This document shows positions 5,184-54,097 of a stretch of DNA of 64,000 nucleotides, one piece after another. The position numbers were made by a program, and so were the translations under genes. Below the pieces are notes generated by a model. That model was not told the DNA's origin. It was given only the letters and a program-made list of their open reading frames with translations, and searched no databases. Origin of the DNA: Agelas oroides (lineage: Eukaryota > Porifera > Demospongiae > Agelasida > Agelasidae); the NCBI GenBank assembly GCA_949130485.1, contig OX422185.1, forward strand, positions 13,091,967 through 13,155,966, read 5' to 3'. The first letter of the stretch is position 1, and every line of letters starts with the position of its first letter.

Positions 5184-5791
5184 TATTAATGAGTATTTGA
5201 AATTTCTGGTGAAATCGGAAGATGCAAATCTTACCATTCCATGCTGATTAAGTTAGCTGATGTCACCTTCAGTTTACACAGCTACTTAGAACCAGTGTGT
5301 GTTACATTGTAACAGCTGTGAATGCTTGTAATTTTTGGGTGTTTATGTTTATGGGGTGCTAATAGACACATGTAAGCACAAGTAATAGCAGGATAGCATG
5401 AAGTTGCTTGGGATCGTATTAACCATGTTAGGTACGTTTTATAGGCCTAAAGTTTCTGTTTTTGCAAATTCTTGTCCCATGTTCCTGACTTTTCAAGAAC
5501 CAGTGATATAGCCGGCACTTGTTTGTTTGTTGTCAACTCCCAACCACCAACATACAGCAATTGAAACTACCACTATCCTTTAGGAGGTTTTTGTTGATTC
5601 CTGAAAGTGCTTTATTGAGAGGCTTTGGCTATATGCTGCTCTTTACCTTATCCCAAAAACATAGTTGCAATTGGAGATAGATATGACGTAGGTTAGCCCT
5701 TATGTTCAGCAGTTAACTTCTGTCCAGGCATTAGTGGGTGCTTTCTTATGTGCAGTCGGGTGCCTATTAATTCTTGTATGAGTACTTAATA
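5184..5791. other. No feature seen
   Basis: AT-rich sequence without open frame, splice-framed exon or recognisable repeat. Confidence 0.4.
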
Positions 5792-42823: not shown

Positions 42824-43262
42824 ACAAGATTGAAGCTTGTGCGCAAGGCTCTACATGTAATGAGTCTCCAAGGAAAGCCTCATCCAGTGGAGTGTTCGTA
42901 AATTTAGTTTCAACTGTTGCAACAACAGCTGGTGGTGGAGTGCCCCCAGGTTCAGCTTTACACCTTCCAGTCCCAGCTGGTGCAGCCGGTGGTGGAGTGC
43001 CCCCAGGTTCAGCTTTACACCTTCCAGTCCCAGCTGGTGCAGCCGGTGGTGGAGTGCCCCCAGGTTCAGCTTTACACCTTCCAGTCCCAGCTGGTGCAGC
43101 CGGTGGTGGAGTGAGTCCCAGCTGGTGCAGCCGGTGGTGGAGTGCCCTCTTTTCACCCTCCCATCAGTACAGGAGTGTTTCCTTCAGTCTCAACTAGTGG
43201 CCCTGCCTCAAGTACATTGGAGTATCTACCTCTATATGCACCAATGGACAGTTCTGCACATG
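42824..43262 (+). pseudogene. BEN-domain gene, exon 2 with minisatellite and frameshift
   Basis: Begins D-KIEACAQGSTCNESPRKAS. At 42931 a 57-bp coding minisatellite starts (GGGVPPGSALHLPVPAGAA, 19 residues): three full units, then a fourth of only 31 bp (43102-43132), then the tail. The 26-bp loss moves the frame by +1. In the shifted frame the tail reads sensibly (STGVFPSVSTSGPASSTLEY then LPLYAPMDSSAH) into a good donor (CATG|GTAAGT), and the split Gly codon is completed by exon 3. The original reading frame instead stops at 43195-43197. The unit is Gly/Pro/Ala-rich and probably a disordered linker. Confidence 0.6.
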
Positions 43263-44586
43263 GTAAGTATTACTAGTGGAAACATAGAACTCTGGGGGTG
43301 GGGGGGAGCAAGCAGTGCATGCAGAACAGCAATGGTTAGCTAAAGCTTTACCGTAGTTGTGATTACCAGATAGCACATCAGCATACCGACCATGCGTGTA
43401 TGTAGCAAGAGCGCATAAGAACGGGTGGCTAGAGTAAGAGCATGTAACTCCAATAGAAGCCCACAGTCCGGTCAAAATTATTGAACTGTTACTAAAAATA
43501 GAACACCTGGCACGTGCTTAGCAACAATGGCTTATGTCTACGCGCAGCTGCGCAGTACGTGTTACTATTTAAATTTTTAGTACGGTTCAATAATTCCAAC
43601 TGGTTTCAAATTTACGTTGTTACACGCTCTTCTTACTCTAGCCGCCTGTTCTTATGCGCTCTTGCTGTAGCTATAGTGGGGATAGTTCCTCTCTACCTCA
43701 GTAACCCATGCATATGGGTTTTGCGAGGCGCACGTACTACACTACCGGCCATGCCATCGACGTCATGTTCTGGTTTCTGTACCTAGATAACACCACATAC
43801 ACAAAAGGGCCTGAACAAACACATGAATATTATGAACGTTTGAAGGTAGATTTACAGTTGCGTACAGCTGATTTCTAATTAACGCACACTCCCAATTGGC
43901 AAGTTGCATGAGCTAAGATGATGACAGAACTTGAGGCATACACTCCAAGCATATGTGAGCAAATATCTTATCTAGATGATTTGTATTGCTATCCAAGGAC
44001 ACTAAGAGTCTTGTTGCTCGTAAAAACACTTGTGATGAATGGTACGTACATTGTCATATTACATTCACCATAGTTAACATTTGCAGAGAAGTTTTAGCAT
44101 TTACATGTCTACCATATGTACTTTGAATGTTAATCCCAAAGATTCGAATGGGGTAATTTCCCATTCATTCAGGCCGTAACCTACGCACGTGTATGTGGTG
44201 GAGTCCTGCTAGTTTGGGATTTGTTTAGGGTCACCCCTAATGGGTGGCATACAAGCTTCCCTGGGGAGGTGGTTGTACTTACACACTGGTGTCATCTACA
44301 CCAGACAACAGTATGCAATACCATTGTGGTCTAAATAATGGGCTATGTAACAGTAGGGGTGGTTTACGGTGGCCTTGAAGGTTGCCCCTCACAAATGTTT
44401 TCTCGTGACGATTCTGTCATACATCACCCTTCACAAATGTTCCCTTGCGACAATCCTGTTCCCTGCCACGAGGATTGATGGAGGACAGGATTGACACGAG
44501 AGAATGTTCACAAAGGGACATTCATGAGGGGTGACCGTTTAATGGAAATGGTGTCAGAAAGAAGTTGGCTTTGCTCTCTTGTGCAG
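43263..44586 (+). other. BEN gene intron 2, with two foldback elements
   Basis: 43395-43680: GCAAGAGCGCATAAGAACGG is repeated inverted at 43650-43670 (GTTCTTATGCGCTCTTGC). 44375-44535: GCCCCTCACAAATG...TTTCTCGTGACGATTCTGTC is repeated inverted as GACAGGATTGACACGAGAG...CATGAGGGGTGAC. Acceptor CTCTCTTGTGCAG. Confidence 0.6.
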
Positions 44587-45453
44587 GTGCTAGGATAATG
44601 CAGGGAGTGAAGGACGCCCTTTTTGCATTCACAATAAAGTTCGAGTGTTTGGAAAAGCACTTGGAACGAAGGATAGAGCAGCAGATGGAGAAGTTCGAAC
44701 AGCAGCTTCGTAAAACCGAGGCCAAACTTGATTCTTCTGTGCGCCAATGTATGGCGGAATTAACGAAGCAACAAACTCATTTACAAAGGAAGCAGGATCA
44801 GCTGGCTGCTAAGCAGGACTTATTGCATACCACAATTGTCCATGATCAGTGCCCCCTACCTCCTCCCATAATGACTTCACCACCACCGTCGGTTCGACTT
44901 TCACACTCATCTCATCAAGACATTTTCAGATCACCATCAGCTGTGCGAGAGATTCTCACCGAAGAAGATAGAGAAATCGATGAGATTATCAGCTACCTCA
45001 GTGGTGAAAGTGGAACAATGGAACAATCTCGATCACAATGCTCTGAATTGCCTCACCAATCTTCACTGGTGGCTGTGGATCGGAATGGTGGATCAGCCCC
45101 TTCCACATCCTTGCTGGCAGAACAACCTAGACCTGCTGTAAGATTGGCAAGCCCATTCCCAGTTCCAATGCAAAGTGGTGGACCAGCCCCCTCTGCGTAT
45201 GTAACCAGTTCTTTTCTGGCAGGTTGTGAGCCCATGAGACAGTGGTTTTTTGGTGACTCAGTTCTTATGTCTTCTACTGTCACGGGAAAGGGAAGACCTG
45301 CACTTGATCCAGCGAAAATGGCATCACTTTATGGTGTTATTCAAAAGAATGTCTTCAAGTCAACATCATGCAGTGCACGAGTTTGAGAAAAACGTTATAC
45401 CAAGAATTAACAATGCTGTTGCTGGAATCTGCAAGCGCTTGAGAAGTACTTGA
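44587..45453 (+). pseudogene. BEN-domain gene, last exon: coiled coil and broken BEN domain
   Basis: Residues just after the acceptor form a long Glu/Lys/Gln-rich coiled coil (KHLERRIEQQMEKFEQQLRK and onward to KQQTHLQRKQDQLAAKQDLL), then a Pro/Ser-rich linker, then at 45235 the BEN-domain core (FFGDSVLMSSTVTGKGRPAL, LDPAKMASLYGVIQKNVFK). BEN domains bind DNA and act in transcriptional repression in the nucleus. The frame fails at about 45365: this frame stops at 45384-45386, whereas the +1 frame carries the expected final BEN helices (VHEFEKNVIPRINNAVAGIC) to a stop at 45451-45453. So a one-base shift lies inside the domain. With the stop in exon 1 and the shift in exon 2 the gene looks dead. 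Assembly error is the alternative. Confidence 0.7.
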
Positions 45454-45491: not shown

Positions 45492-45705
45492 AGAGTTTTT
45501 GTACTCCCTTCCACTTCACACTTTTTTTAAATGTACTTTTAGTATTTTTATGGTGTGGTAGTGGAGTGCCCTCCCCCAATATTTATTCAATGTTTATTCA
45601 TTTTTTGTACTCCCTTCCACTTCACACTTTTTTTAAATGTACTTTTTAGTATTTTTATGGTGTGGTAGTGGAGTGCCCTCCCCCAATATTTATGCAATGT
45701 TTATT
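45492..45705. repeat. Two-copy ~105-bp tandem repeat after the BEN gene
   Basis: TTTGTACTCCCTTCCACTTC...TTTATGGTGTGGTAGTGGAG then TGCCCTCCCCCAATATTTAT, twice, almost identical. It follows the BEN stop directly and so would lie in the 3' UTR. Its TATGGTGTGGTAGTGGA core recurs at 51897-52185. Confidence 0.85.
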
Positions 45706-45910
45706 CATAATGTCTGAGTAGCACAGTCCCTGTCTCGTTCCCAGACCATGGGTTATGCGCGCGCGCAGGTTGGTCTGCTGAGCTGGCCGGTTGGACTGAC
45801 ATGACGTAGCGTTGTGTATAAAGCATGCACTCGCGCTCATATATTCTGATGCGACCGGCAACTGAAGACTCTCTCACCGAAGTGAAATACTATCTTGGCG
45901 TTTTAAGAAG

Positions 45911-45991
45911 ATGGGTAATCTGTTCCGAGGACGGCGGATAGCGGAACGTTCTGCAAAGACTCGAACTGCTGGTACGAAGGAGTCCTCTGAG
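45911..45991 (+). CDS. SKP1/zinc-module gene, probable first exon
   Basis: ATG opens MGNLFRGRRIAERSAKTRTA, and 27 codons end exactly at a good donor (TGAG|GTGAGC) in phase 0, which fits the next exon at 47859 (phase 0, VSEQLE...). MG-N at the N-terminus resembles an N-myristoylation signal, though the basic stretch could equally be a nuclear signal. Joining over a 1.87-kb intron is an inference. Confidence 0.4.
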
Positions 45992-47543: not shown

Positions 47544-47858
47544 TGTGTACTTGTGTGAGGCCATTTCTGCACAAAGATATTAATTAGTGTATTGTTACCA
47601 CCAGACTGAGCTAGATATTATAGATTTGCAATAAAGATTTACCTACCAACAGAATTGTAATTATTCTGCCCATGTTATTACATCATGTATCTTAGGTACC
47701 GTATACTATATTCCATATGGTTGGTAATTTGTGCGTGTAGTGAGCTATATGTGAAAATAGAAATTGCTGTGTTTCTGGTGAGCAAATCAAATTCCAATCC
47801 AGTAGTACTGCACACTAACTAGCCGTCCTAGTATGTCATGTCTGCTAACCACCCACAG
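45992..47858 (+). other. SKP1/zinc-module gene, inferred intron 1
   Basis: Holds the nested TA-flanked MITEs at 46223-46377. 47499-47545 is a (TG)n(GA)n run. 47100-47150 and 19040-19075 share GTGTGGGGCTCRCTCAGGCT. No exon recognised. Confidence 0.45.
46223..46377. mobile_element. Mariner-type MITE with a second one nested in it
   Basis: CTGTGAATTTCAC left and GTGAAATTCACAG right, with TA at 46221-46222 and 46378-46379. Inside, 46270-46313 is a perfect hairpin (CCATAGATAGTAGAGTAGTAT and its complement, 2-base loop), itself flanked by TA (46268-46269, 46314-46315). Confidence 0.85.
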
Positions 47859-48373
47859 GTGTCCGAGCAGCTAGAGAGCTGCAAGTCAAGTGGTGGAGAT
47901 CCCCCCTTGGCCGACATTACTGCCACCCTGCCACAAGCCGCCATCCTGTCTCCACCAGTGGTGTCGGAGCAGCTAGAGAGCTGCGAGTCAAGTGGTGGAG
48001 ATGCCCCCTTGGCCGACCCTACTGCCACCCTGCCACAAGCCGCCGTCCTGTCTCCACCAGTGGTGTCCGAGCAGCTAGAGAGCTGCAAGTCAAGTGGTGG
48101 AGATGCCCCCTTGGCTGACATTACTGCCACCCTGCCACAAGCCGCCGTCCTGTCTCCACCAGTGGTGTCCGAGCAGCTAGAGAGCTGCGAGTCAAGTGGT
48201 GAAGATGCCCCCTTGGCCGACCCTACTGCCACCCTGCCACAAGCCGCCGTCCTGTCTCCACCAGTGGTGTCCAAGCAGCTAGAGAGCTGCGAGTCAAGTG
48301 GTGGAGATGCCCCCTTGGCGCCGACCCTACTGGCACCCTGCAACAAGCCGCCGTCCTCCTGTCTCCACCAGCG
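47859..48373 (+). CDS. SKP1/zinc-module gene, repeat exon 1, 2-nt insertion
   Basis: Codes five units of a ~34-residue repeat (VSEQLESCESSGGDAPLADP then TATLPQAAVLSPPV). Begins in phase 0. A GC dinucleotide is inserted near 48318 (TTGGCGCCGACC against TTGGCCGACC in the other copies), so the frame shifts and reads out of frame to the donor. Length is 515 nt, 2 over a multiple of three. As flanking exons are phase 0, skipping this exon would restore a full-length protein. It may be a dispensable or a damaged duplicate. Confidence 0.5.
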
Positions 48374-48479
48374 GTAAGTAAGAAATGTGTGTATAGTGGG
48401 GAGATTGTTGTATTTAAGACAGCTTGTTGAGAATGCGATGGTTGCTTGAAAGTACGTCATGTCTGCTAACCACCGACAG

Positions 48480-48686
48480 GTGTCCGAGCAGCTAGAGAGC
48501 TGCGAGTCAAGTGGTGGAGATCCCCCCTTGGCCGACCCTACTGCCACCCTGCCACAAGCCGCCGTCCTGTCTCCACCAGCGGTGTCCGAGCAGCTAGAGA
48601 GCTGCGAGTCAAGTGGTGGAGATGCCCCCTTGGCCGACCCTACTGGCACCCTGCAACAAGCCGCCGTCCTCCTGTCTCCACCAGCG
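48480..48686 (+). CDS. SKP1/zinc-module gene, repeat exon 2
   Basis: 207 nt, phase 0 at both ends, two repeat units, intact. Both its introns are nearly identical (48374-48479 and 48687-48792, each starting GTAAGTAAGAAATGTGTG), which shows that exon plus intron was duplicated as one ~310-bp block. Confidence 0.6.
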
Positions 48687-48792
48687 GTAAGTAAGAAATG
48701 TGTGTATAGTGGGGAGATTGTTGTATTTAAGACAGCTTGTTGAGAATGCGATGGTTGCTTGAAAGTACGTCATGTCTGCTAACCACTGACAG

Positions 48793-49191
48793 GTGTCCGA
48801 GCAGCTAGAGAGCTGCGAGTCAAGTGGTGGAGATCCCCCCTTGGCCGACCCTACTGCCACTCTGCCACAGGCCGCTGTCCTGTCTCCACCAGCGGTGTCC
48901 GAGCAGCTAGAGAGCTGCGAGTCAAGTGGTGGAGATGCCCCCTTGGCCGACCCTACTGCCACCCTGCCACAAGCCGCCATCCTGTCTCCACCAGAGGTGT
49001 CCGAGCAGCTAGAGAGCTGCGAGTCAAGTGGTGGAGATGCCCCCTTGGCCGACCCTACTGCCACCCTGCCACAAGCCGCCATCCTGTCTCCACCAGAGGT
49101 GTCCGAGCAGCTAGAGAGCTGCGAGTCAAGTGGTGGAGATGCCCCCTTGGCCGGCACACTACCACCAGCTTCCATCCCATCACCACCAGTG
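48793..49191 (+). CDS. SKP1/zinc-module gene, repeat exon 3
   Basis: 399 nt, phase 0 to phase 0, four repeat units in frame; the last ends AGTLPPASIPSPPV before the donor GTG|GTAAGG. Repeat residues are Ser/Gly/Asp/Pro/Ala-rich with one conserved Cys per unit (LESCESSGGD), suggesting an extended, possibly disulfide- or metal-sensitive, linker. That function is speculative. Confidence 0.6.
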
Positions 49192-49299: not shown

Positions 49300-49470
49300 A
49301 ACAAATTTGGAGCACACATGAGGAGATACAGGCGACTTCTAAAGATCCTTGATTCCTTTGACGACCCTCCACCAACAGCTGCTGTTTCCACTTCTTCCTG
49401 CTTAGCTGCGCAAGGGGACCATCCCCAGTCAGAAGCTACCCCATCAATCCACTTAAAACCTGTTCCCATG
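49300..49470 (+). CDS. SKP1/zinc-module gene, linker exon
   Basis: 171 nt after TTGTGTACAG, phase 0 to phase 0. Starts NKFGAHMRRYRRLLKILDSF (a basic amphipathic helix), then DDPPPTAAVSTSSC, and ends HLKPVPM at the donor ATG|GTAAGT. No domain recognised. Confidence 0.55.
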
Positions 49471-50977: not shown

Positions 50978-51856
50978 GTTACACTTTCTTTGGGGGACCA
51001 ATCTATTCAGGTTCCTCGTACAGACATTGAGACAATCCCCTTTTTTGCTGTTTATTTTAAAAGGTGGACATCATCCACCCAGATGGTGTTGCCCGACATG
51101 CCTGAGCTGAAAGATCTATTGTTGCTAAAACAATTGATTGGTTACTGTAATACAACAAAAGAAGACCAGTTGCCGGACCACTTTATGGTCACTTTCAGAT
51201 TGATCAGGATGGCGGACTTTTTGGGGTGTGACACATTTCTAGAAAATACTGCCGAACAGCTTGGCACTAGTGTGCTCAAGATCAACAATAGCAACAGTGT
51301 CAGAAATGTGAGGGAATACGTCCGAAATGCTTACCGATGGGCCACTAAGTCTGCAGAAAAAAATCAACGATTCTGTTCTGTGTGCCAGAAAAGTTTAGCT
51401 GCGCAATTTCCAAGACTTCCCACCTTGACGACCATGGTTTGCTGCAAACTTGAAATCCATTTGAGTTGCCTTTCTAACTTCTCAACCTGTCCTTGCTGCA
51501 GCCAGCCATACCAACTTTTACCCTGCTGTGTTTGCAGGGGACCAATCGAAGTTGAGCCCGGACTATCCCACTGTGAAGTTTGGTTAAAGTACCAACACAA
51601 TAGAACGGAGTGCTGTGGTGCCGATATGCATGAGTCTTGTCGGAAAAATCACTTCCTGATATACTACAATCGTTGCCCAATATGTCAAGTTCCGATCAAG
51701 CAAGGCCAACCAGATCATGAAGATTTCGAAGCAATGGATTTTATATATATGCGTTCTCAGCAAAACAAAAATAACGAATTTCACCGCAAAAATAAACATT
51801 ACTTTATGCCATCCCCTTTTGCTAATGCGGCAGCAGCAGCACCACCACCACCATAA
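50978..51856 (+). CDS. SKP1/POZ-like protein with two CC-x4-H zinc modules, last exon
   Basis: 292 codons after acceptor TTTTCATGTGCAG, in phase 0 with the preceding exon, to TAA at 51854-51856. Counting from this exon, residues 1-100 resemble the SKP1/BTB (POZ) fold: VTLSLGDQSIQVPR (strand), LPDMPELKDLLLLKQLIGYC, then FRLIRMADFLGCDTFLENTA, as in SKP1 helices. Two zinc modules follow with the same spacing. Module 1 (51374-51499) is C-x2-C...CC-x4-H-x2-C...C-x2-C in FCSVC...VCCKLEIHLSC...CPCC. Module 2 (51524-51685) repeats it in CCVC...ECCGADMHESC...CPIC. The pattern is RING-like. SKP1 proteins bridge cullins to F-box subunits and RINGs recruit E2 enzymes, so a ubiquitin-ligase role is the natural inference but is not shown. 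The C-terminus is low complexity (Ala5-Pro4). Confidence 0.7.
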   Translation, partial: VTLSLGDQSIQVPRTDIETIPFFAVYFKRWTSSTQMVLPDMPELKDLLLLKQLIGYCNTTKEDQLPDHFMVTFRLIRMADFLGCDTFLENTAEQLGTSVLKINNSNSVRNVREYVRNAYRWATKSAEKNQRFCSVCQKSLAAQFPRLPTLTTMVCCKLEIHLSCLSNFSTCPCCSQPYQLLPCCVCRGPIEVEPGLSHCEVWLKYQHNRTECCGADMHESCRKNHFLIYYNRCPICQVPIKQGQPDHEDFEAMDFIYMRSQQNKNNEFHRKNKHYFMPSPFANAAAAAPPPP

Positions 51857-51896
51857 ATAAGTTCGTTTTTTTTGTTGTTGTTCTTGTTCACTGTCT

Positions 51897-52185
51897 TATG
51901 GTGTGGTGGTGGATTTGCCCTCCCGCCTAAATGTTTCTTCTGTATCGTCTTTATGGTGTGGTAGTGGATTTGCCCTCCCGCCTGAATATTTCTTCTGTAT
52001 CGTCTTTATGGTGTGGTAGTGGATTTGCCCTCCCGCCTAAATATTTCTTCTGTATCGTCTTTATGGTGTGGTAGTGGATTTGCCCTCCCGCCTAAATATT
52101 TCTTCTGTATCGTCTTTATGGTGTGGTAGTGGATTTGCCCTCCCGCCTAAATATTTCTTCTGTATCGTCTTTATGGTGTGGTATA
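51897..52185. repeat. 55-bp tandem repeat after the SKP1/zinc gene
   Basis: Five units of TTTATGGTGTGGTAGTGGAT then TTGCCCTCCCGCCTAAATATTTCTTCTG..., starting 40 bp after the stop and so probably in the 3' UTR. The core matches the array after the BEN gene. Confidence 0.92.
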
Positions 52186-52749: not shown

Positions 52750-52883
52750 CTATGGAGACGAATAAAATACAACATGACTCTCAATCAACACACAGTACAC
52801 TACGTAACACAGTAGTCAAAGATGGAACTTATAGCCTATTGACACATGCAGTCCAAGTAGCTTTCGTAACAATGGGCATTTAC
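52750..52883 (-). other. Intron in the transposase gene
   Basis: 134 nt, AAG|GTAAAT...CCATAG|GAA. If unspliced, the frame stops after 16 further codons (52836-52838) and the C-terminal helices are lost, so splicing would be needed for a full-length enzyme. Confidence 0.7.
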
Positions 52884-53732
52884 CTTTAACTCATGCCACA
52901 GGTTCTCAATCGGGTTTACATCTGGGCTTTCTGGGGGAGTCCTCCACCAATTACTGTTTTGCTCAGAGAAAAATGCCTGTGCTATGCGAGATGTGTGCTT
53001 CAGATCATTGTCCTGCATAAAGCGATGTCCATTGGGATATACTTGGTTTAGAAATGGAACAAGACACTCTTCCAGGATTTGTATGTACAACTCGGCATTC
53101 ATGATACCGTCGAATATGCAGAGCTTTGTTGTACCGCGGTAGCTGATGCCACCCCAAACATGGAGTTTGATGGGGTGTTTTGGGCGTGGTTTATAGCGGG
53201 GCTTCTGATCCTTGCCCTTTCTCCTGCAGCAGAACCTCCTGTGTGTTTCGAGTTGCACTGTAGTTTCGTCCGACCACACGACGTCGGCAAAATCGTCATG
53301 AAGATTTTCTCGAGCCCACCTGAGGCGCTTCTCTTTGTTTTGCTGTCGAATCAGCTGGCAGTAGGCCGCCCCACGAGATGTCCAGCCAAGTAACTTTCTT
53401 CCTTTCAACACAGTGCGGAGAGATATCCAATATCCAAATTCGGATCGAATCAACAAAACAAGCTCTTTCACTGTAGTTTCATCGTCACTCTGCATTTTTT
53501 GTTCGATTAGTTCTTGTACTCTCTCCGTAAGTTTCGTAGGTCGACCGCTCCTCGGTAGAGGCTTAGTAGTTTTGTTCCTACGGTAATGGACCCAAAACCT
53601 CCACACAGTTTGCCTGCATGGCCGTATACCCTCCTTCCCAAGTTCTGTCATCGCGTGCTTCACAGTAGAATCTTCTGACATCAAAGCACTGAGCCTTTCT
53701 CGAGCATATAGAGGTTCTGCATGTGATGTCAT
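52884..53732 (-). CDS. Tc1/mariner DD34E transposase, exon 1
   Basis: Intact frame. The Met at 53732 is preferred as start (MTSHAEPLYARERLSALMSE); the frame is open a further 24 codons upstream. Domains in order: N-terminal helix-turn-helix (to about residue 55 from this Met), the GRP linker in PRSGRPTKL, then the DDE core with catalytic Asp in VVWSDETTV, Asp in FMQDNDLKHTS and Glu in SPDVNPIENLW. The second Asp and the Glu are 34 residues apart, the DD34E signature of Tc1-like enzymes. With exon 2 the protein is about 326 residues, within the usual range. Cuts and pastes its element at TA sites in the nucleus. All catalytic residues are present, so it may be, or recently was, active. Confidence 0.88.
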
Positions 53733-54097
53733 CAAAAGGGTTAAATTTATTAATTTTAATTTTAATAGTCTTGCCAATTTTTCTAGGCAATAAGGAAGGT
53801 CCAAATAGCTTAAATCTCAAGTGAAAATTCTAAATTAATGATAGTTGATTTTATATAAATTGTCAAAGTTTGATCTTTTAGCATTAACTTGTATGGCGAG
53901 TGGCAAAATTTGCCACTCGCTGTACAAATCCTATGCAAAATGTTTGACTTTAAGAATTTATATAAAATCAATGGAAAGGAGTTAGGCCTTCATATTTTAG
54001 ATTTGAGTTAGCTGGACCATCAGTATTACCTGCAAATGTTTGGAATGGCTAATTATGAATTTTAAATTGGTGATGACGTCACTGCAGAACCTCTATA
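53707..54097. repeat. Large imperfect palindrome overlapping the transposase start
   Basis: TATAGAGGTTCTGCA at 53707 is inverted at 54083-54097, and the ~190-bp arms pair along their length (GATTTTATATAAATT against AATTTATATAAAATC, ATGTCATCA against TGATGACGT). The centre, 53896-53920, is a perfect hairpin (GCGAGTGGCAAAATTTGCCA...). The left arm includes the preferred start codon. Confidence 0.75.

Follow-up and report, generated by a model that had tools for sequence, protein, structure and literature searches.

The exon at 50978-51856 (+ strand) of the window (the whole stretch of 64,000 nucleotides analysed here, C3:13091967-13155966 in an assembly of 259 Mb and 141 contigs) encodes a POZ-like half followed by two zinc modules. 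It is best explained, if only tentatively, as the C-terminal part of a RING-type ubiquitin ligase made of a single chain, in which a POZ domain serves for assembly. POZ and RING functions usually lie on separate proteins; as they appear to be joined here, the gene may code for a ubiquitin ligase consisting of one chain. POZ and zinc domains are each known, and it is their combination, together with the doubling of a C4HC3 module, that is unusual.

The last coding exon and its zinc modules

The exon opens behind the acceptor tgtgcag/GTTACA and forms an open reading frame of 292 codons, closed by a TAA stop at 51854-51856. It comprises the POZ-like domain, the two zinc modules and a tail, and the uninterrupted frame bears out an earlier note that had placed the POZ-like part and both modules in a single exon. 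In two distant paralogues, L014 and L016, the exon starts at the same place, behind CAG.

Zinc module 1 (residues 133-174; 51374-51499, + strand) has the pattern C-x2-C-x18-CC-x4-H-x2-C-x6-C-x2-C, with the ligands C133, C136, C155, C156, H161, C164, C171 and C174. The RING-like module 2 (residues 183-236; 51524-51685, + strand) reads C-x2-C-x25-CC-x4-H-x2-C-x11-C-x2-C, with C183, C186, C212, C213, H218, C221, C233 and C236. Counting of residues confirms that both share the order C-x2-C...CC-x4-H-x2-C...C-x2-C, as had been read from the translation. The earlier note had made conservation of the ligands in homologues one test of its reading, and on that comparison its claim survived. Across five paralogues of the same genome (the window copy and four others that are 91, 34, 31 and 31% identical to it), 15 of the 16 ligand columns are invariant; the sixteenth holds Ser in L015 and Cys in the sister copies L017, L018 and L019. 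Cys columns other than the ligands vary among the paralogues. When every copy in the fetched loci is counted, even those that have decayed, ligand residues are retained in 344 of 376 comparisons (91.5%), other residues in 1628 of 2147 (75.8%) and non-ligand Cys/His in 83 of 119 (69.7%), counts that exclude gapped positions and hits of at least 99.9% identity and include four overlapping locus pairs twice. The shared ligand order thus goes beyond a chance resemblance, and both modules are putative zinc binders.

The doubling of the module, also claimed earlier, proves to be a true duplication. Aligned with hhalign, the profiles of modules 1 and 2 score 33.8 (probability 92%), and shuffled profiles score 10.0 ± 2.2, with 0 of 200 reaching the observed value; on these profiles the two modules are homologous duplicates.

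The resemblance to RING domains lies in module 2. When the family profile of the zinc half was compared with all PDB sequences, the best match was 6f98, the RING of an E3 ligase (E 2.2e-4), followed by HRD1 (E 2.4e-3) and AMFR (E 2.5e-3). Named E3 ligases or RING proteins make up 23 of the 25 matches at E <= 1, with a few proteins accounting for many of them through repeated entries, and the matched stretches fall at profile positions 55-120, which correspond to module 2, with the exception of one kinase hit. Module 2 is thus similar in sequence to solved RING domains, and module 1 is tied to RING solely through its homology to module 2. The window sequence alone gave just one RING match, to PCGF6 (E 0.042).

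Canonical RING domains use the ligand sets C3HC4 or C3H2C3, which are absent in both modules, these being C4HC3 with an adjacent CC pair. In the alignment with 6f98, RING ligand position 3 is taken by the second residue of module 2's CC pair and ligand position 4 by an Ala; the set is non-canonical because of this Ala and the additional Cys next to ligand 3. That Cys may stand in for the missing ligand 4. V185, between the first and second Cys of module 2, is invariant in the five copies, and in each of them Q, R or H follows the last Cys of the module; in RINGs these two positions face the E2 or ubiquitin. The RING function proposed in the earlier note is supported in part: module 2 resembles RING ligases, but neither module has a canonical ligand set, and the note's 'ligase or scaffold' is a putative role.

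The modules could instead be readers of substrates or peptides in a cullin-dependent or purely structural adaptor, whose POZ domain would bind a cullin (as BTB domains do for CUL3) or oligomerise; this is a serious but less probable explanation. RINGv/PHD fingers and Prok-RING_1 (PF14446) share the ligand order C4HC3 with C-x4-H-x2-C, and this spacing is as near to PHD/RINGv as to RING. The adjacent CC pair and the tandem arrangement set the present modules apart from these families, and PF14446 was matched by one of the five members (E 0.0063). Pfam matches of single paralogues are weak and spread over several zinc families, none of them RING proper (the best being Trm112p, E 0.0042, and Prok-RING_1), which also favours an adaptor. 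By contrast, the profile of the zinc half matches RING ligases and not PHD proteins, which argues for the ligase reading.

Other libraries gave little for the exon protein. The window protein matched no Pfam family at E <= 10, NCBIfam returned no match and PADLOC, searched with the window protein only, none either. PHROGs gave three matches, none better than E 0.035. Rfam had no match over the whole window, and tblastn confirmed no relatives in IMG/VR or prokaryote genomes.

The POZ-like half

The N-terminal half of the exon (residues 1-100; 50978-51277, + strand) is likely, rather than certain, to adopt a POZ fold. A structure model of residues 1-126, its Foldseek neighbours and profile comparison speak for this assignment; Pfam, the PDB profile search and a model of the whole exon speak against it. 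Both models were made from a single sequence and are of low confidence (mean pLDDT 43.5 for residues 1-126 and 34.0 for the whole exon). The POZ core follows the order B1 B2 A1 B3 A2-A5. In the 126-residue model the predicted elements are E2-5, E8-11, H14-19, H21-27, E35-37, H42-58, H69-81, H85-101 and H106-124, giving, at this low confidence, the order B1 B2 A1 B3 A2/3 A4 A5. A core of three strands and five helices is described in passages of PMC1257465. The low-confidence model also predicts an extra helix after the core (51290-51349, + strand), around NSNS[IV]R..VR in the paralogues.

In a Foldseek search with the 126-residue model, 46 of the best 50 of 152 matches were BTB, SKP1, elongin-C or KCTD entries, assigned by entry title and with the chain inferred in multi-protein entries; the best E value was 0.075, and none fell below 0.001. 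Among the matches listed are the CUL3 adaptors KBTBD4 and SPOP and a CUL3-RBX1-KLHL22 entry, neighbours that speak for the cullin-dependent adaptor. In a viral structure library, 20 of the best 50 of 107 matches were named BTB/POZ, SKP1, channel-tetramerisation or kelch-like (best E 0.02), many of the other listed matches having no telling name.

Profile comparison is marginal. Aligned by hhalign to 12 BTB domains from this genome, the profile of the POZ half scored 17.6, where shuffles scored 11.6 ± 2.3 and 4 of 200 reached the observed value. The score was 19.0 (1 of 200 shuffles) when L015 was removed and the profile cut to 112 columns, and 17.0 (5 of 200) when 11 fragments from additional copies were added, with one place represented twice. 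The alignment is collinear with the BTB core, residues 1-95 lying on 13-102.

These results bear on an unlikely alternative, in which the N-terminal half has some other small fold and the protein is just a zinc-finger protein with two modules. Pfam found no POZ family (BTB, Skp1_POZ or related) in any of the five members, the PDB profile search with the POZ part alone gave two weak unrelated hits (the best a designed cage, E 0.93), and the whole-exon model had no POZ entry among the 50 Foldseek matches listed. A few shuffles also reach the BTB profile scores. Against this alternative stand the order of strands and helices in the 126-residue model, the predominance of POZ-type entries among its best Foldseek matches, the POZ-type names in the viral library and the collinear BTB alignment.

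The SKP1/POZ fold proposed in the earlier note is less well supported than its zinc modules. It finds backing in the topology and Foldseek matches of the low-confidence 1-126 model, but not in Pfam or the whole-exon model, and profile scores are marginal. SKP1 as such did not hold: Pfam detects no Skp1 family in the exon protein, an ordinary SKP1 is encoded on C9, and 16 of 200 shuffles equalled the profile score of 13.7 obtained against that genome's own SKP1. Identity with SKP1 was rejected on these grounds.

Upstream exons and the proposed ligase

A gene model was built from the sequence, using GT/AG borders and exon lengths divisible by three. It would run from 45911 to the stop as a single 578-residue frame that starts with MGNLFRGRR and keeps phase 0 throughout. 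A TATA-like TATAAA (45817-45822, + strand), ~90 bases ahead of the proposed start, is a putative promoter. Proposed exon 1 (45911-45991, + strand) encodes MGNLFRGRRIAERSAKTRTAGTKESSE in phase 0 and ends at the donor GAG/GTGAGC. Two further proposed phase-0 exons would carry 34-residue Cys-bearing repeats, two of them at 48480-48686 (+ strand) and four, the last one shortened, at 48793-49191 (+ strand). A proposed linker exon, NKFGAHMRRYRRLL...PVPM (49300-49470, + strand; phase 0, donor ATG/GTAAGT), would follow. The repeat array has a 102-bp unit, equal to 34 residues with one Cys, in 12.6 copies, some outside the proposed exons; a long Cys-bearing repeat in front of the last exon, as noted earlier, is thus found again in the proposed upstream exons. 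A repeat-bearing, exon-like block of 515 nt (47859-48373, + strand) is not a multiple of three and is likely skipped or damaged; being two bases out of phase, it would need skipping.

Paralogues lend support to exon 1. Its 27 residues are the same in the copy at C3:13283709, and L016 has MGNIFKQPRSQQRR... at 5231, in the stretch separating its BEN-like frame from its POZ exon, with GTACGT coming after 69 nt (read by eye). Middle exons like those of the window were recognised in neither L014 nor L016. In the copy L009 (C1, 91%), exon 1 contains a TGA and four bases are inserted behind the acceptor of exon 6, so this copy may be decaying. The protein begins with MGNLFR in the window and MGNIFK in L016, with Gly2 present and position 6 basic (by eye). 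The usual N-myristoylation pattern pairs Gly2 with a small residue at position 6; N-myristoylation was rejected as a firm claim, position 6 being Arg or Lys and so outside this pattern.

In the proposed ligase, the POZ-like domain would hold chains together or dock a partner, and the repeat-bearing N-terminal arm would reach for targets or a membrane, the arm and the basic MGN start together placing the enzyme. The duplicated C4HC3 RING-like modules would recruit an E2, module 2 being the likelier E2 platform and module 1 its more degenerate partner. Binding of an E2, ligase activity and the parts played by the arm and the POZ domain are predictions. A wider possibility, which we regard as doubtful, is a cullin-free ligase class that unites a POZ assembly domain and a duplicated C4HC3 RING-like pair on one chain and is expanded and lost quickly, like ligase families of the immune type.

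Several known systems share parts of this arrangement. In cullin ligases, docking (POZ) and catalysis (RING) fall to different proteins, and a natural POZ-RING chain, if real, would be another way of building a ligase. Like SCF, with SKP1 and RBX1, the present protein would use a POZ-type fold and a RING-type zinc domain for ubiquitin transfer, if the reading is right; here, however, both are on one chain, a cullin would not be needed, the protein is not SKP1 and the modules are C4HC3. The CUL3 adaptors (KBTBD4, SPOP, KCTD) have in common with it the POZ-like domain and are among the closest Foldseek neighbours listed for the 126-residue model, but rely on CUL3-RBX1 for their RING; Pfam finds no Kelch, BACK or MATH domain in this exon.

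The zinc domains of BTB-ZF transcription factors are C2H2 DNA-binding fingers, whereas the zinc modules here are RING-like C4HC3. ZNRF1/2 are not known to have a POZ domain, and the basic position 6 also separates the present protein from them. The likeness to these two groups consists in a POZ domain followed by zinc domains on one chain for BTB-ZF proteins (passages of PMC1257465), and in Gly at position 2 with a C-terminal RING-like domain for the N-myristoylated RING ligases ZNRF1/2 (passages of PMC10869362). In passages of PMC13061254, CUL3 adaptors are characterised by the phi-X-E and 3-box motifs, BTB substrate receptors and RING proteins form separate classes of human E3, and a BTB-RING chain is not named. 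Titles, abstract starts and passages in open-access PMC yielded no paper describing POZ and RING in one chain, which is not proof of absence; two papers that contain such a phrase use it in other senses.

Copies, selection and neighbourhood

The gene family occupies at least 26-29 places in the genome, 29 when gaps of up to 300 bases are joined and 26 with gaps of up to 1500. These counts come from four protein queries, with duplicate listings of a place and rows of E above 0.001 excluded and the rows on C14 taken as one range, and are lower bounds, only the best candidates having been scored. The whole exon is open in four copies (the window, C1:23606355, C6:4019482 and C21:3883733) and a fifth, C2:5945354, is open from about residue 48 onward; the remaining copies have stops or frame breaks or are partial. 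L014 and L016 are 36 and 34% identical to the window copy in the genome search, and 34 and 31% in the alignment. The near copies at C3:13.28 Mb (~95-99%) and on C1 (~82-95% in collinear pieces) share introns and flanks with the window and so arose by segmental duplication; retrocopying was rejected on the same evidence.

Between the window and the C1 copy (91%), dN is 0.045 and dS 0.263 over 286 codons, a dN/dS of 0.17 (bootstrap 0.09-0.28), and the ratio is similar for the POZ (0.16) and zinc (0.15) parts; YN00 gives 0.28. Third positions hold 40 of the 69 base differences. By this substitution pattern, the exon at 50978-51856 is under purifying selection. The host family would be one that duplicates and decays quickly, and such turnover, if true, would point to a conflict-driven role.

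On C14 (L020, 2029-5236), eight tandem 402-bp units contain a decayed gene piece with module 2. At C9:2302987 (L063), the promoter and MGNLFRG run into sequence that lies 3' in the window gene, the interior missing; C9:2268265 has the same match end in the match listing.

A coiled-coil/BEN-like gene lies upstream of the POZ-zinc gene, at 44535 to ~45453 (+ strand) of the window. Its frame stops at 45384-45386, and a continuing stretch in another frame stops at ~45453 (by eye). Pfam made no BEN call on the whole BEN-like frames (E <= 1), and the C-terminal piece of the L016 copy matched BEN at E 0.025, under the cut-off. By DNA, this gene is found at eight places in the genome, the window included, and as short pieces. 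The order BEN-like then POZ-zinc recurs in the window, at C3:13.28 Mb, at C1:23.60 Mb and in the distant C21 copy, and both C9 places adjoin the BEN-like gene. A fusion of the two genes was rejected, the BEN-like frame having its own stop in L016 and stops also in the window. In the C21 copy, a HIRAN-domain frame (L016, 4047-4502; Pfam E 1.5e-6) lies between the two genes.

The pairing raises the possibility, which we consider improbable, that the genes are selfish or element-borne, the POZ-zinc gene and its BEN-like neighbour moving as a duplicating block that the protein would serve instead of the host cell. It would fit the number of places, mostly broken or partial, the recurrent gene order, and the C9 copy in which promoter, first codons and 3' part survive and the interior is missing, with its second C9 counterpart of the same match end. 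However, the near copies are homologous across introns and flanks too, the pattern of a segmental duplication, and a nearby Tc1/mariner frame and a high-copy element of the window look like separate elements.

Minisatellites with a GTGGA(G)(x)TGCCC-like core occur at 42926-43144, 45496-45708, 47853-49153 and 51896-52183 (+ strand matches), in coding and non-coding sequence of neighbouring genes; an exact search of the genome with one composite form of the core gave no match. Of the two elements, the first is a Tc1/mariner-type transposase frame at 52839-53816 (- strand), open over 326 codons (Pfam DDE_3, E 3.5e-20). The second is a high-copy element of ~390 bp with internal inverted similarity, at ~53707-54097; of 824 candidate places 40 were scored, and those not in the duplicated C3 segment are 98-99% identical.
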